64,000 nt of DNA from Pedobacter lusitanus (GTDB lineage: Bacteria; Bacteroidota; Bacteroidia; Sphingobacteriales; Sphingobacteriaceae). Of this stretch, positions 41,119-56,801 are shown piece by piece. Positions within the stretch are counted from its first letter, which is position 1. Every line of letters starts with the position of its first letter. The stretch spans positions 3,534,001 through 3,598,000 of the forward strand of contig NZ_CP157278.1 of the NCBI RefSeq assembly GCF_040026395.1, given 5' to 3'. The notes beneath the pieces are model-generated. The model saw only the letters and a program-made list of their open reading frames with translations. It did not search any database and had not been told where the DNA came from. Position numbers and translations under genes: made by a program.

Positions 41119-41324
41119 TCTGTTTCTGTAGAATTTATATAAGCTTCAGCGGCATCAAAATCCTTTTGACTAACCAATACTTCAATGATACCGAAAGTCT
41201 GATAAGAAGAATCTTTTTTATTCATAACTACCGCTGCAATATCATTCTCTATTAATCCCTGTTTAATAATCTCTGCTGTTACAGGATTTTCTGTGGTATA
41301 AACCTTAACCCAATTGTTCTCCAT
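41115..41324 (-). CDS. DUF2007 (putative signal-transducing) protein
   Basis: 69 residues. The pattern NWVKVYTTENPVTAEIIKQGLIENDIAAVVMNKKDSS is typical for DUF2007, a PII-like ferredoxin fold. Located between the CPBP protease gene (20-bp overlap) and cdsA (4-bp overlap), so all three are tightly coupled. Function unknown; regulation of lipid synthesis is one possibility. Confidence 0.88.
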   Translation of the reverse strand: MENNWVKVYTTENPVTAEIIKQGLIENDIAAVVMNKKDSSYQTFGIIEVLVSQKDFDAAEAYINSTETE

Positions 41325-44421: not shown

Positions 44422-44740
44422 CTCTTAATATCACATTTTACTAAATGTACATAACTCAAAAATTGTTCCTATAATTCTCTATTCCAATAATTTTTAAATG
44501 AAATCCACATAATTAAATTAAAACAGATGATTTAAATTAACAAACACTCTTTACAGTTAATAAATTAATTAACCATTAAAAAATTACACGCTATATCTCT
44601 TAAAATAATCAGTTTATTTTTTGTAAAAATATTTTATGTCTTATAAAAACTTCATAAAATCCACAATTTACACAGATTATAATACTAAAATACTTGTTAA
44701 AATCGTTTATATTATAGATTTTTGATAAAAAAATTAGTAA
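44422..44740. other. AT-rich intergenic region upstream of rmuC
   Basis: 319 bp with no ORF, terminator or RNA that I can recognise. It is extremely AT-rich (several stretches of 25-30 bp with almost no G or C) and contains AAATCCACA twice (44501-44509 and 44657-44665), each two mismatches from a DnaA box. Probably promoter DNA for rmuC and the peptidase gene. Confidence 0.6.
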
Positions 44741-46063
44741 ATGAACATTGTCATTATAGTATTACTCGCCATTGTTATCCTTTTCCTTTTTTTAATTCTG
44801 TTAAAAAAACCAGGAGTGGCCGATAACCAAAAAGATCTTCTTTGTTTAAAAGAAGCCGAACATGATAAGATTTTATCTTATTACAAAGAAGAAAAACAAA
44901 ATCTGGAAGATGAACTTATCGATTTGCGTAAAGGGTTTATGGACGAAAGAAGCCGTGCTGTAAAAGCAGAAGAAATGCTGAAAGCACAGCTCGATAAACA
45001 AACAGAACAGGAAAAATACATAGCCGAGCTTCAGCAAAAATTCCAGCTGGAATTTGAACATATTGCCAATAAGATCCTAGAAGAAAAGTCATCAAAATTC
45101 ACAGCAAACAATAAGGCTAACATGGATCTCATTTTAAGCCCGCTGAAGGAAAATATAAAAGCATTTGAGGAAAAGGTTGACCGGGTATACAAAGCGGAGT
45201 CTGATGAGCGGAATATACTCAAGGGAGCAATTTCACAGCTCATGGATCAGAGCAGACAAATACAGGAAGATGCCAATAATCTGACCAAAGCACTCAAAGG
45301 CGATAATAAAAAACAAGGTAACTGGGGGGAAATTATTCTGGAAAGAGTACTGGAACGTTCAGGATTGGTTAAAGACCAGGAATATCGCATACAATCCAGT
45401 TTTAGTACTTCCAGCGGCAACAGGGTACAGCCAGATGTAATAATTGATCTGCCGGAAGATAAACACATTGTAGTGGACTCTAAAGTCTCTCTGATTGCCT
45501 ATGAAAAATATGTAACTGCAGAAACAGAAGAAGAAAGAGAAATATTTGTTAAGCAGCATCTGCTCTCCTTAAAAAATCACGTACAGGATTTGTCAGGTAA
45601 AAACTATCAGGCGCTTTATCAAATCAATTCACCTGATTTTGTTTTACTTTTTATCCCTATAGAATCTTCATTTGGTATTGCTGTACAAAAAGATGCCGAA
45701 CTATTCAACTATGCCTGGGAAAGAAAAGTAGTGATCGTAAGTCCTTCAACTTTACTGGCCACATTACGTACAATTTCAAGTATCTGGAAGCAGGAAAGAC
45801 AAAATAGAAACGTATTGGAAATTGCCCGGTTAAGTGGTAGTATGTACGATAAATTTGTTGGTTTCATCACTGATATGGAAAGTATCGGACGAAACATCCG
45901 TCAAAGTCAGGATGCCTATGACAAAGCCATAGGAAAATTATCAGCAGGTACAGGAAATCTGGCTGTTACCGCAGATAAAATAAAAAAACTGGGTGCAAAA
46001 ACCACGAAACAGATTGATCGTAAATTTTTAGACCCAGCTTTAATAGACGATGAAATCCTATAA
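44741..46063 (+). CDS. rmuC: DNA recombination protein RmuC
   Basis: 440 residues. N-terminal TM helix (about 3-24), coiled coil (about 30-175), then the RmuC nuclease-fold domain with NWGEIILERVLERSGL, VQPDVIIDLPEDKHIVVDSKVSL and VLLFIPIESSFGIAVQKD. E. coli RmuC limits recombination at inverted repeats. The end overlaps the convergent thiL gene by 6 bp. Confidence 0.94.
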   Translation: MNIVIIVLLAIVILFLFLILLKKPGVADNQKDLLCLKEAEHDKILSYYKEEKQNLEDELIDLRKGFMDERSRAVKAEEMLKAQLDKQTEQEKYIAELQQKFQLEFEHIANKILEEKSSKFTANNKANMDLILSPLKENIKAFEEKVDRVYKAESDERNILKGAISQLMDQSRQIQEDANNLTKALKGDNKKQGNWGEIILERVLERSGLVKDQEYRIQSSFSTSSGNRVQPDVIIDLPEDKHIVVDSKVSLIAYEKYVTAETEEEREIFVKQHLLSLKNHVQDLSGKNYQALYQINSPDFVLLFIPIESSFGIAVQKDAELFNYAWERKVVIVSPSTLLATLRTISSIWKQERQNRNVLEIARLSGSMYDKFVGFITDMESIGRNIRQSQDAYDKAIGKLSAGTGNLAVTADKIKKLGAKTTKQIDRKFLDPALIDDEIL

Positions 46064-47098
46064 CTTAAAAGCACTCCATCCCTGTGCTTTCAGTTCATGA
46101 ACCACATTTGATTTAGAAATCATTTTACAGCCTGATGCTTTCTCAGTAATATGTCCAATGACGGTAATATCCACATCATGCTTTAATTTTGTATAATCAT
46201 CCTGTTTGATCGTGAACAGCAATTCATAGTCTTCTCCACCGTTTAAAGCACAAACAGTTGGATCCAGACCAAGTTCTCTTGCAGTTTCATAAGTCATCGG
46301 ATCAATAGGAAATTTATCTTCATACATGGTACAGCCTTTTTCAGATTGCTTGCAGATATGCATAATTTCAGAAGCCAGCCCGTCAGATACATCAATCATT
46401 GATGTCGGTATAATTTTCATCTGAGCCAGTAAATCCACTATATCCCTTCTTCCTTCAGGTTTAAGCTGTCTCTCAATAATATAATCTTTACCCTCCAGAT
46501 CAGGCTGAATATTAGGATTTTCCAGGAATATCTGTTTTTCTCTTTCCAGAATCTGAAGACCTACATAGGCACCGCCCAAATCGCCGGAAACACAGATTAA
46601 ATCACCTTCATTTGCACCATTTCTGTAGCAGATATCCTCTTTTGCAGCATAACCTATACTCGTTACACTCAATACTAATCCCTGTTTACTTGAAGAAGTA
46701 TCCCCCCCAATTAAATCAATATTAAACTTATTACAGGCCAGTTCTATTCCTTTATAAATTTCTTCAACAGCTTCCAGCGGAAATTTACTGGAAACACCAA
46801 TAGAAACTGTGATCTGGGTGGCTACTCCATTCATAGCATAAATATCACTCAGATTAACCTGTACGGCCTTATAACCAAGGTGCATTAAGGGTACATAAGC
46901 CAGGTCAAAATGAATTCCTTCCAGTAATAAATCTGTAGAAATCAATACTTCTTTATCACCCGAATGCAGTACTGCAGCATCATCACCAATTCCTTTGACA
47001 CTGCTTTCATGTCTTATTTTGAAATTATTGGTCAGGTGATCAATCAGACCAAATTCACCTAATTCACCTAACTCTGTACGTTCTTTATTTTCAAACAT
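46058..47098 (-). CDS. thiL: Thiamine-monophosphate kinase
   Basis: 346 residues, usual ThiL length. Metal/ATP motif KGIGDDAAVL near the N-terminus, DLIGGDTSSS, a substrate region with MIDVSDGLASEIMHI, and NGGEDYELLFTI near the C-terminus. It phosphorylates thiamine phosphate to the diphosphate. The N-terminus has a local ELGELGE repeat that is genuine coding sequence. It follows nadA by 44 bp, and a hairpin (47118-47141) lies between. Confidence 0.95.
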   Translation of the reverse strand: MFENKERTELGELGEFGLIDHLTNNFKIRHESSVKGIGDDAAVLHSGDKEVLISTDLLLEGIHFDLAYVPLMHLGYKAVQVNLSDIYAMNGVATQITVSIGVSSKFPLEAVEEIYKGIELACNKFNIDLIGGDTSSSKQGLVLSVTSIGYAAKEDICYRNGANEGDLICVSGDLGGAYVGLQILEREKQIFLENPNIQPDLEGKDYIIERQLKPEGRRDIVDLLAQMKIIPTSMIDVSDGLASEIMHICKQSEKGCTMYEDKFPIDPMTYETARELGLDPTVCALNGGEDYELLFTIKQDDYTKLKHDVDITVIGHITEKASGCKMISKSNVVHELKAQGWSAFKL

Positions 47099-47142
47099 TT
47101 TTTTCTATACTAATTTTAACCGGCGGAATCTCCGTTCGGTTT

Positions 47143-48135
47143 CTACAATCCAAGACTTGCTGAAATTTCCAGCATTCTTTCAATCGGTTTTCTTGCTTCT
47201 GTTATAATATGCTCAGGAACAGTCACTTCAGGAGATCCGTTTTTCAAACACAGATACAATTTTTCTAAAGTATTTCTTTTCATATACGGGCAGTCATTAC
47301 AAGCACAATTATTATTCGGTGGTGCCGGAATAAATGTTTTTGTAGGATTTGCCTTTTCCATCTGGTGGATTATACCACTTTCAGTAGCTACTATAAATTC
47401 TTTTGCATCACTTTTGATAGAATAATTTAACAAACCTGTAGTAGATCCGATATAATCAGCCATCTGCAATACTGCTTCTTCACATTCCGGATGCGCAATA
47501 AATTTCGCATTCGGATGACGTTCTTTAAGCTTTGTTATTTTCTCTCTTGAAAATATCTCATGAACCATACAGGCACCATTCCACAATACCAGATCTCTGC
47601 CGGTTTTCTTTGCTACCCAGGCTCCAAGATTTTTATCCGGACCAAAAATAATTTTCTGCTCTTTTGGCAGGCTTTCTACAATTTGGACTGCATTCGTTGA
47701 AGTACAAACGATATCACTCATCGCTTTTAATTCTGCTGTGCAGTTTACATAGGTAATTACCAGGTGATCCGGGTATTTTTCTTTAAATTTTTTAAACAAA
47801 TGTGGTGGACAACTATCAGCTAATGAGCACCCTGCCTTTAAATCCGGTAATAAAACCTTTTTTTCCGGAGAGAGGATTTTAGCTGTTTCTGCCATAAAAT
47901 GCACTCCTGCAAACACAATCACATCAGCCTCTGTTCTGGCGGCTTCCTGCGAAAGACCCAAACTATCCCCTATATAGTCCGCAACATCCTGTATATCAGG
48001 ATCTTGATAGTAATGTGCAAGGATTATTGCATTTTTCTCTTTTTTTAACTTTTCAATTTCCGCAAAAAGATCAAGTGTTGGGTCGATACTTTCTTCTACA
48101 AATCCTCTTCTGTTCAATTCTTCTAAGGTATCCAT
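47143..48135 (-). CDS. nadA: Quinolinate synthase A
   Basis: 330 residues from the ATG at 48135; a TTG two codons upstream is also possible. The 4Fe-4S cysteines are visible: [11 protein letters not shown] region, [18 protein letters not shown] and the C-terminal [29 protein letters not shown] identifies the family. It condenses iminoaspartate with dihydroxyacetone phosphate in NAD synthesis. Divergent from nadB, which makes its substrate. Confidence 0.95.
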
Positions 48136-48253
48136 TTTCAACGTTTCAATAATTAATAATTATTTAATATAAATAGATTTCTATTGTTTATTAGTGTGTT
48201 AGTAATGTTTGTAACTCTGGGATTTTTATTCGTTTTTATAACTTGTTCTATAC

Positions 48254-48262
48254 TTATCCACA
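48254..48262 (+). promoter_or_regulatory. DnaA box TTATCCACA
   Basis: A perfect match to the consensus TTATNCACA in the nadA-nadB gap. Confidence 0.6.
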
Positions 48263-48328
48263 AATAAATCACTTTTTTTTTAGAAAATATCCGCTGATTT
48301 ACAATTAGATATTTTTAAGATTAAAAAC

Positions 48329-48337
48329 TTATCCATA
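48329..48337 (+). promoter_or_regulatory. Near-match DnaA box TTATCCATA
   Basis: Eight of nine bases match the DnaA box, same orientation and 75 bp from the perfect box. Confidence 0.4.
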
Positions 48338-48500
48338 CTCAGATGTTTATTAGTTATCTGGTAGTAAAAAGTTAATAACTCATGCAAAGTTGCTGAAAAA
48401 TAACTTAAAATATTGTGTCTAATTCTCATTTTACCTTAGCTTTAAACATTCTTAAATAGTTACTCTATTTATTTAGACAAGTAATCAACATATTTCTAAC

Positions 48501-48512
48501 GTTGTTAACAAC
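48501..48512. promoter_or_regulatory. Palindrome GTTGTTAACAAC upstream of nadB
   Basis: A perfect 12-bp palindrome ending 22 bp before the nadB ATG, in a position suited to an operator or a transcription-factor site. No regulator can be named. Confidence 0.4.
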
Positions 48513-48534
48513 AAGGTAGAATTAGCAGAATTCA

Positions 48535-50121
48535 ATGAAGAATACAGACTTTTTAGTTATAGGATCGGGGATTGCGGGCTTGAGCTTCGCTTTAAAGGCC
48601 GCTAAGCATGGTAAAGTTTTGATTATTACAAAATCAAACGAAGATGAATCGAATACAAAATATGCCCAGGGTGGGGTAGCTGTAGTTGTTGATAAAGATG
48701 ATTCTTTTGAAAAACATATTCAGGATACTTTAATTGCCGGTGATGGACTTTGTGATCCGAAAATTGTGGAGATCGTGGTGAAAGAAGGGCCTCAGCGCAT
48801 TCAGGAGATCATAGATTACGGAATTAATTTTGACAAGGACACCGCTGGCGTTTATGATCTGGCTAAAGAGGGAGGGCATTCAGAGCATCGTGTTTTGCAC
48901 TATAAAGACGTTACTGGATATGAGATTGAGAGTGTTTTACTGAAGCAAATTCATGAAAATCCGAACATAGAGATATTAACACATTACTTTTGTTTGGAGT
49001 TAATTACCCAACATCACCTTGGTGAGTTTGTTGACAAGAGCACTAAAGTTATTAACTGTTTTGGTGTATATGCCTTTAATACAGAGCTTAACGATGTGGA
49101 AAAGATCTTAGCAAAGGTGACCGTTCTTGCTTCTGGTGGTGCTGGTCATGTCTATTCAAGTACTACAAACCCGGTGATTGCAACTGGAGATGGTATGGCA
49201 ATGGTTTATCGTGCTAAGGGAAAATTAAGGAATATGGAGTTCATTCAATTCCATCCGACGGCTTTGTATAACCCTGGAGAGTATCCATCGTTCTTAATTT
49301 CGGAGGCTGTAAGAGGCTTTGGAGGGGTATTAAAACGTAAGAATGGTGATGAATTTATGTATGAATATGACGAAAGAGGGTCTCTTGCACCACGTGATAT
49401 TGTTGCCAGAGCGATAGATTCTGAAATGAAAAAATCTGGAGAAGATTTCGTTTATCTTGATATAAGACATCGTTCAAAAACTGACATATTGACACACTTT
49501 CCTAATATTTATGCGAAGTGCTTATCTATAGGAATTGATATGACCAAAGATTTAATTCCTGTAACTCCGGCAGCACATTATATGTGCGGAGGAATTATGG
49601 TGGATGAATTTGGAAGATCTTCTATTCATAATTTATATGCCTGCGGAGAATGTTCTTCCACAGGTTTACACGGTGCAAACAGACTTGCTTCAAATTCATT
49701 GCTGGAAGCTCCTGTTTTTGCCCATCGGATTTATCTGGATGCAGTAGAAAAGTTTAAAGAAAGCTTTATTCCGGAAAATATTCCGGAATGGAACGACGAT
49801 GGTGTTGTTCAATCTGATGAAGATATTCTGGTTACACATAACCTGAGAGAAACTCAGAAATTAATGAGTGATTATGTGGGTATTGTACGTTCTGATTTCA
49901 GGCTTGACAGGGCTATGAGACGTTTGTTTTTACTTCATGAAGAAACTGAAGAATTTTATAAAGCGAATAAAGTATCAGTTAAGTTATGTGAATTAAGAAA
50001 TGTGATACAGGTTGCTTTTACAGTGATTAAGTCCGCAATGGCCAGAAAAGAAAGCAGGGGATTACATTATACTACTGATTATCCCGGTCATGCTGAAAAA
50101 TTAACAGATACTATTTTTTAA
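48535..50121 (+). CDS. nadB: L-aspartate oxidase
   Basis: 528 residues. FAD-binding motif VIGSGIAGLSFALKAA at the N-terminus, the KYAQGGVAVV loop, HRVLHYKDVTG, and GGIMVDEFGRSSIHNLYACGECSSTGLHGANRLASNSLLE near the FAD end. It oxidises aspartate to iminoaspartate, the substrate of NadA. The plus strand is noticeably G-rich here compared with genes to the left. The gamma-carbonic anhydrase gene follows after 12 bp. Confidence 0.95.
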   Translation: MKNTDFLVIGSGIAGLSFALKAAKHGKVLIITKSNEDESNTKYAQGGVAVVVDKDDSFEKHIQDTLIAGDGLCDPKIVEIVVKEGPQRIQEIIDYGINFDKDTAGVYDLAKEGGHSEHRVLHYKDVTGYEIESVLLKQIHENPNIEILTHYFCLELITQHHLGEFVDKSTKVINCFGVYAFNTELNDVEKILAKVTVLASGGAGHVYSSTTNPVIATGDGMAMVYRAKGKLRNMEFIQFHPTALYNPGEYPSFLISEAVRGFGGVLKRKNGDEFMYEYDERGSLAPRDIVARAIDSEMKKSGEDFVYLDIRHRSKTDILTHFPNIYAKCLSIGIDMTKDLIPVTPAAHYMCGGIMVDEFGRSSIHNLYACGECSSTGLHGANRLASNSLLEAPVFAHRIYLDAVEKFKESFIPENIPEWNDDGVVQSDEDILVTHNLRETQKLMSDYVGIVRSDFRLDRAMRRLFLLHEETEEFYKANKVSVKLCELRNVIQVAFTVIKSAMARKESRGLHYTTDYPGHAEKLTDTIF

Positions 50122-54300: not shown

Positions 54301-54316
54301 TGTTCCACGTGAAACG
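54301..54316. promoter_or_regulatory. parS-like site 1, TGTTCCACGTGAAACG
   Basis: Matches the known ParB-binding consensus TGTTCCACGTGAAACA in 15 of 16 positions. It lies 15 bp upstream of the mnmG ATG. ParB loading here would nucleate the origin-segregation complex. Confidence 0.75.
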
Positions 54317-54346
54317 TCGCCTGTATTTTTCTTTGTGAAGCGAGTG

Positions 54347-54362
54347 TGTTCCACGTGGAACG
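54347..54362. promoter_or_regulatory. parS-like site 2, TGTTCCACGTGGAACG
   Basis: 14 of 16 positions match the parS consensus, and its inner 14 bases are a perfect palindrome. Centre-to-centre distance from site 1 is 46 bp. Confidence 0.7.
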
Positions 54363-56299: not shown

Positions 56300-56801
56300 A
56301 GTATATTTTTAACGAATTATCAGATAAGAAATTACCGGCAAAAGTAAGCAATATTTGTGGGTATAATATTCATGTGTTTAAACATCTAAATATTATATTA
56401 CAATTAAGTAACGTACGGAGTTATAAGTATATAATGAAAATCAGAAATGGCAATGATTTGGGAAATCAGAATGCTGAAATAATTTATATGCCGTAGCCAC
56501 AGGGCCTTAAAAAACTGGGGTATCATTGTTCGTCATTTCAGCAGGTTTGCCGGATAATTTGAATCAAAATACAAAAAACCGGCGAAATGAGGTATTTGAT
56601 CTGGCTTCTGGTTTTAATCTTCCTTTTAACGTACATTAGAGGCGATTTAACGAGGTTATTGGCATTTTGGAATAATAACCCTAAGAAAAGTTAAAAATGG
56701 CCTGTACTGCTTTAAAATGAGTCGGGTTTTTGAGTCGAGAAAGTTGTCTGTAACTAGTTTATAATCAGTTGTTTATTTGTTTCTGTTGCTGGAAATCAAA
56801 A
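56300..56801. other. 502-bp gap between ybeY and the ABC-F gene
   Basis: AT-rich sequence. It contains a short plus-strand ORF (56587-56694), which I list separately, and an imperfect inverted repeat around its start: TCATTTC (56533-56539) with GAAATGA (56584-56590) and TTTGCCGG (56546-56553) with CCGGC. The ABC-F end carries a near -7 box (TACTTTTTG on the reverse strand). No tRNA or longer ORF seen. Confidence 0.6.
56587..56694 (+). CDS. Candidate 35-residue membrane protein
   Basis: An ATG-to-TAA frame in an otherwise empty 500-bp gap. The peptide is one hydrophobic helix (YLIWLLVLIFLLTYI) followed by a polar RGDLTRLLAFWNNNPKKS tail, a typical inner-membrane micropeptide layout. The start codon lies within the 3' arm of an inverted repeat. 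Transcription or translation is not shown. Too short for family recognition. Confidence 0.5.
   Translation: MRYLIWLLVLIFLLTYIRGDLTRLLAFWNNNPKKS

Follow-up and report, generated by a model that had tools for sequence, protein, structure and literature searches.

Where does replication of the Pedobacter lusitanus chromosome begin? The question is raised by a gap between two genes within the window, by which we mean the whole 64-kb stretch analysed here (3,534,001-3,598,000 of a one-contig genome of 6,049,699 bp). A first-pass annotation of this DNA had described a gap of 393 bp between divergent genes and proposed it as the origin; the description is borne out, with nadA on the minus and nadB on the plus strand, and the gap (genome 3,582,142-3,582,534) is present in a single copy. 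The listed start of the nadA reading frame is a TTG, with an ATG six bases inward at 48135, and NadB is 85-92% identical to its counterparts in nine named Pedobacter and 76-81% identical to those of Mucilaginibacter, Sphingobacterium and their kin. RNA families and tRNAs numbered zero in the 64-kb window. Our sequence analysis supports the proposal: the nadA-nadB gap is very probably the chromosomal replication origin, oriC. Among the features that mark an oriC, the gap combines a skew minimum (in samples of its own genome), a cluster of one exact DnaA box, one 8/9 match and five weaker conserved positions, an AT-rich element of predicted instability beside the boxes, and a place and sequence conserved in relatives; a neighbouring dnaA is absent, the copies lying 1.2-2.5 Mb away.

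Table 1. Features of the proposed origin region and the dnaA genes; positions refer to the window unless marked as genome.
Feature	Position	Strand	Remarks
Proposed oriC, whole nadA-nadB gap	48142..48534		cumulative GC-skew minimum at 48,500; conserved; single copy
nadA, quinolinate synthase, left flank	47143..48141	-	TIGR00550 and NF006878 over cut-off
nadB, L-aspartate oxidase, right flank	48535..50121	+	TIGR00551 and NF006567 over cut-off
Predicted DNA unwinding element	48144..48193		lowest 50-bp stability in 64 kb; aligned in relatives
Conserved TTATTAG element beside B1	48188..48194	+	exact in 37/52 aligned gaps; putative function
B1, DnaA-box-like, TTACTAACA	48197..48205	-	conserved position; TTATCCACA in one relative (L067)
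B2, DnaA box, TTATCCACA, exact	48254..48262	+	TTATCCACA in 9/52 and TTAYYAACA in 39/52 gaps
B3, DnaA-box-like, TTATCCATA, 8/9	48329..48337	+	TTATCAATA in 27/51, TTATCCATA in 10/51
B4, DnaA-box-like, TAATAAACA, weakest	48344..48352	-	position conserved, letters degenerate
B5, DnaA-box-like, TTATTAACT, weak	48370..48378	-	conserved position; TTATCCACT in some relatives
B6, DnaA-box-like, TAATCAACA, weak	48482..48490	+	conserved position; TTATCCACA in one relative (L102)
B7, DnaA-box-like, TTGTTAACA	48502..48510	+	conserved position; TTATCCACA in one relative (L088)
parS-like pair beside mnmG, GTTCCACGTGNAAC	54301..54362 (54301-54316 and 54347-54362)		similar offset in relatives
dnaA paralog	genome 1115043-1116476	-	full-length
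dnaA paralog	genome 1561434-1562861	-	full-length
dnaA paralog	genome 4760182-4761609	+	full-length

Strand composition points to an origin at or very near the gap. We followed GC skew through the genome in 40 spread 10-kb samples, assigning arms on the premise of an origin at the gap and a terminus near 0.46-0.56 Mb. Skew is negative in 17 of the 20 left-arm samples and positive in 17 of the 20 right-arm samples, so that 34/40 are consistent with two arms joining at the gap; the left-arm exceptions are single positive samples at 2.55, 3.00 and 3.30 Mb, and those of the right arm (3.70, 0.30 and 0.45 Mb) each lie within 0.01 of zero. The sole sustained switch from C-rich to G-rich in the sampled genome falls at 3.57-3.62 Mb. 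The local shift that the first-pass annotation had estimated by hand is real (GC skew -0.214 over 46001-48000 vs +0.169 over 48001-50000), and the skew minimum that it predicted near 48.3 kb was found at window position 48,500, as the raw cumulative minimum over the surrounding 184 kb and 129 genes. Over the same 184 kb, a changepoint model that used third codon positions and fitted the two gene strands separately put the best break at 47,099-47,146, the left boundary of nadA, with the gap 0.9 log units below; breaks at 46,061 and 50,119 are worse by 5.5 and 10.1, the remainder are lower, and all those beyond 46,061 leftward or right of nadB trail the best by 10 log units or more. The resolution of this model is about one gene, and the gap is inseparable from nadA. 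Across the break, GC3 skew goes from -0.04 to +0.25 in plus-strand genes and from -0.17 to -0.02 in minus-strand genes read on the plus strand.

The opposite switch lies at 452-463 kb (167 genes in 14 stretches), giving arms of about 3.12 and 2.93 Mb for a switch at about 0.46 Mb. A dif site was considered as a marker of the terminus: ATAANNNNNNTTATGTTAA, presumably the dif pattern of proteobacteria, is matched exactly at three places, among them 475,667. We do not claim that match as dif, because, with up to one mismatch allowed, the pattern occurs less often than its reversed control (44 vs 63) and because the switch at 452-463 kb is preferred to 475,667 by 11.8 log units. Separately, two dif-like words at genome positions 3264523 and 3270696, 6 kb from each other, have identical surroundings and each a partner word at a distance of 67 bp, and are perhaps copies of a repeated mobile element that uses a dif-like site.

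Skew around the gap is disturbed in some relatives. Of six closed relatives compared over 120 kb around nadB, G009 alone has its raw cumulative minimum in the gap; the minimum lies to the right by 22 kb in G019, 13 kb in G048, 35 kb in G008, and 12 kb in both G041 and G058. Under the model corrected for gene strand, the gap ranks first in G009 and trails the best position by 0.8 log units in G019, 2.1 in G048, 1.6 in G008 (with little power), 3.3 in G058 and 8.0 in G041, where the model clearly favours another break; it is thus within 2.1 log units of the best in four of the six and worse in two. Spread samples from four relatives fit the two-arm pattern in 28 of 40 cases (G008 9/10, G048 8/10, G041 7/10, G019 4/10), the pattern failing in G019. 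Of 23 loci taken with 8 kb on either side, eight have their raw minimum inside the gap, and own-strand GC3 skew pooled over the same loci changes as expected, from -0.06 to +0.10 in plus genes and from +0.14 to -0.02 in minus genes. Rearrangement is a possible source of the misfit in some relatives.

In Pedobacter and its near relatives, the divergent order nadA-gap-nadB recurs at 52 of the 54 loci compared, where the gap measures 392-616 bp; at the other two, the sequence ends short of nadA. These 54 loci comprise our own, the 29 best NadB matches with loci and 24 of 80 further NadB matches, and their 52 gaps reduce to 51 distinct sequences, one being duplicated. We scored conservation as aligned fraction times identity at 17 of 24 named loci. 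At the nine from named Pedobacter, the gap scores 0.66, against 0.77-0.81 for coding controls and 0.03-0.18 for five other nearby gaps; at the eight from other genera, it scores 0.12 vs 0.00-0.04 for other gaps. The controls that are fairest as to length score 0.03 (44422-44740) and 0.05 (56300-56801). Three of the five control gaps are short and hence carry less power, and one short gap, 41119-41304, reaches 0.85 and 0.73 in the two closest relatives, about equal to the nad gap at 0.86. Conservation of the nad gap could in part be owed to nad promoters within it.

As first presented, the argument from DnaA boxes in the gap is weak. The first-pass annotation had pointed to two boxes in the same orientation, an exact TTATCCACA and TTATCCATA, and both are present (B2 and B3), together with the five weaker conserved positions that we add. 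As evidence for an origin, two such boxes alone are at chance level: the window holds 22 boxes with at most one mismatch vs 21.2 expected, and the genome 69 exact boxes vs 63 for a reversed control pattern. What raises the gap above chance is the genome-wide skew and the comparison with relatives. The positions B1-B7 were picked by eye on the alignment. In the P. lusitanus genome, only B2 and B3 differ from the E. coli consensus TTATCCACA by no more than one letter, and B1 has three mismatches to it; across relatives, B1, B2, B6 and B7 each match TTATCCACA perfectly in one or more. At six of the seven positions, the AC close to the end of the box word hardly varies; B3 ends in ATA. The wider pattern TTA[CT][CT][AC]ACA (TTAYYMACA) occurs 100 times in the 51 distinct gaps and is present in all of them, vs 6.6 ± 2.4 in dinucleotide shuffles, and exact TTATCCACA occurs 15 times, in 12/51 gaps, vs 0.3 expected; the shuffles leave the kinship of the gap sequences in play, so that these counts are not independent events. 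Control patterns in the same 51 gaps gave 0 vs 0.3 (ACACCTATT), 10 vs 5.0 (ACAA[CT][CT]ATT) and 0 vs 0.2 (TATTCCAAC).

Could the gap be a mere shared promoter-operator of nadA and nadB, with the true origin in some other gap no more than a few kb away, for example beside parS and mnmG? The flanking genes are divergent NAD genes, B7 lies within a palindrome, GTTGTTAACAAC, a short way ahead of nadB, which could be an operator of nadB instead of or in addition to a box, and a conserved block, TTAGCTTTAAACATTC (window 48437-48452), is perhaps a nadB promoter in the Bacteroidota style. The skew model is no finer than about a gene, and in five relatives the raw minimum falls 12-35 kb farther right. 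Against this stand the low conservation of the five other nearby gaps, read with the reservations given above, the penalty of at least 10 log units for breakpoints right of nadB in the genome itself, and the DNA upstream of nadB elsewhere. An origin at nadB outside Pedobacter and its near relatives was considered and rejected: exact boxes precede nadB at 0 of 56 loci outside these genera (of the 56, one has no upstream DNA and one 219 bp only) and TTATCMACA at three of the 56, so that the boxes are not tied to nadB itself. We regard the promoter-operator explanation as improbable, and the gap as very probably the origin.

At the nadA end of this presumed origin lies the predicted unwinding element. 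By nearest-neighbour energy in sliding windows over the 64 kb, it ranks first for instability at 50 bp, third at 100 bp and second at 300 bp; the gap 44422-44740 is less stable than the nadA-nadB gap at the two larger sizes. The AT-rich stretch is followed by TTATTAG, replaced at the same position by TTATTAA in 6/52 and by TTATTGG in 4/52 gaps, and then by the reversed box B1. A published rule for basal unwinding asks for a box with at most two mismatches, a spacer of at most 16 bp and at least three DnaA-trios with a central A (PMC8287927). In either orientation, a search of the gap for box, spacer and trios gave 13 matches, against 3.5 ± 3.4 when mononucleotide shuffles were searched likewise; B1, whose three mismatches exceed the rule, is not among the 13.

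The parS-like sites that the first-pass annotation had placed 6 kb away are likewise there, between mnmG and an ABC-F gene, and GTTCCACGTGNAAC without mismatch occurs nowhere else in the genome. At 20 of 23 loci, between one and three parS-like sites are found at a distance of 5.7-7.1 kb on the right of nadB, the other three loci ending earlier, and all six closed relatives have a pair at 5.8-6.5 kb with no further such site in 120 kb. The one ParB-type gene that we found lies at 4,417,065, away from the proposed origin.

The first-pass annotation had also remarked that dnaA is absent from the window, and matches there are indeed zero; three full-length paralogs, 85-91% identical, lie elsewhere. 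All have what we take to be Walker A, Walker B and Arg-finger regions of the usual kind. The paralogs, near 1.12, 1.56 and 4.76 Mb, fall within the arms and not at skew switches, and the switch at a distant dnaA that was named as telling against the gap is not seen in samples at 1.05-1.20, 1.50-1.65 and 4.60-4.90 Mb, where the sign is the same on either side of all three copies. This constancy argues against replication from a distant dnaA locus, the arrangement of many bacteria, with the box clusters of its promoter as the origin and the 3.58-Mb switch as a relic. DnaA-box-like sites do stand in the promoter of every one of the three paralogs, with up to five TTAYYMACA in 320 bp before the 1.12-Mb copy and two in the nadA-nadB gap of the same genome. 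Nearly the same two boxes precede dnaA paralogs in 14 genomes, as autoregulation predicts: in raw counts over 30 genes, a plus-strand box lies at -158 to -182 in 28/28 genes with DNA reaching there, and a minus-strand box at -82 to -101 in 27/29. We therefore consider a distant dnaA origin very unlikely. At both promoter places, TTATCCACA, TTATCAACA, TTATTAACA, TTACCAACA and TTACTAACA interchange, and these fixed places support TTAYYMACA as the probable DnaA box of the lineage. A helix-turn-helix 16-mer is identical in 28 of the 30 genes; in the remaining two, its final residue is changed.

Most remote is the explanation that the skew switch marks an inversion or an assembly boundary, which the disturbed skew of some relatives might suggest and which we find scarcely credible given the two long arms, the opposite switch half a chromosome away and the recurrence of the order nadA-gap-nadB-parS across genera.

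We counted full-length dnaA genes in 60 genomes of the genus, of which many are drafts: 44 carry a single copy, eight carry two and eight carry three. In a dnaA tree, in which 11 of 27 inner branches are open, extra copies group apart from the canonical ones. One separate group of paralogs (L257-L263, from G032, G012, G056, G059, G047, G014 and G029) has an altered lead-in to Walker A, listed directly as GASGLGKTH or GPSGMGKTH in five of the seven and recognised in the other two by failure of the pattern only. G008 has six equal short DnaA-domain matches under the family cut-off, in open frames of 253 aa, which are perhaps ATPases of an insertion sequence.

Computation shows where the strand switch lies, how well the gap is conserved, which box-like words it contains, that its AT-rich end is of low calculated stability and that a parS-like pair is close by; from these features we infer binding by DnaA and ParB, melting, and a start of replication at the gap. 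DnaA made from the three paralogous genes would bind the seven strong and weak boxes across 48197-48510; a filament would grow leftward from the reversed B1 across TTATTAG into the AT-rich stretch, which would melt and there receive the helicase. Two forks would depart from the gap and converge near 0.46 Mb, and ParB on the parS pair 6 kb off would segregate the new origins.

The arrangement resembles that of E. coli oriC (NC_000913.3:3925744-3925975, between mnmG and mioC), where an AT-rich left end, TTATTAG, a reversed box and more boxes follow one another in the same order; by analogy, TTATTAG may be an element common to both. The gene mnmG is also near in both, adjoining oriC in E. coli and lying 4 kb away here. 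The E. coli origin has a longer spacer from TTATTAG to the box and other flanking genes, while most sites here are TTAYYAACA. Elizabethkingia, a member of the Bacteroidota, belongs to a class other than that of Pedobacter. The oriC predicted for Elizabethkingia meningoseptica, at 0.74 Mb, is unlinked to dnaA, at 2.61 Mb, as here, to go by the positions stated in that report (PMC8994065). For Pedobacter itself, the sole earlier statement on an origin that we found is a one-line Ori-Finder prediction for strain Hv1, an oriC of 447 bp at 65,484-65,930 of a contig (PMC4683228). That length equals the gap in two relatives (L076 and L087) and is within 3 bp of the 445-450 bp of several more, and the predicted Hv1 oriC is likely the same place, judged by length; it is a draft-genome prediction, and the line on it gives no neighbours, boxes or skew (PMC4683228). 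The composition and boxes that Ori-Finder 2022 looks for, as outlined in its description (PMC10225481), are found here, but dnaA, the usual indicator gene of Ori-Finder and DoriC-type origins, is not nearby. In the open-licence literature, we found no report of nadA-nadB as an origin, or of a triple dnaA in Pedobacter.

The gap would belong to a known kind of element; any novelty would lie in the question of multiple initiators. We suggest, tentatively and at rather less than even confidence, that part of Pedobacter combines one origin with two or three full-length, diverged DnaAs whose DNA-reading motifs are identical or almost so and whose genes have boxes in their promoters, so that an initiator network acting on a largely weak TTAYYAACA origin, and not one master DnaA, times initiation; the multiplication of dnaA makes this question of several initiators at one origin testable. 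For this Pedobacter, the analysis offers a precise, testable origin, described down to its boxes, unwinding stretch and parS, and conserved in related genera. Chromosome numbering could be corrected accordingly, since the contigs of G008, G009, G019 and G052 start at dnaA and the origin should be elsewhere. An origin at this place would permit the construction of oriC plasmids and the estimation of growth rates from metagenomes.
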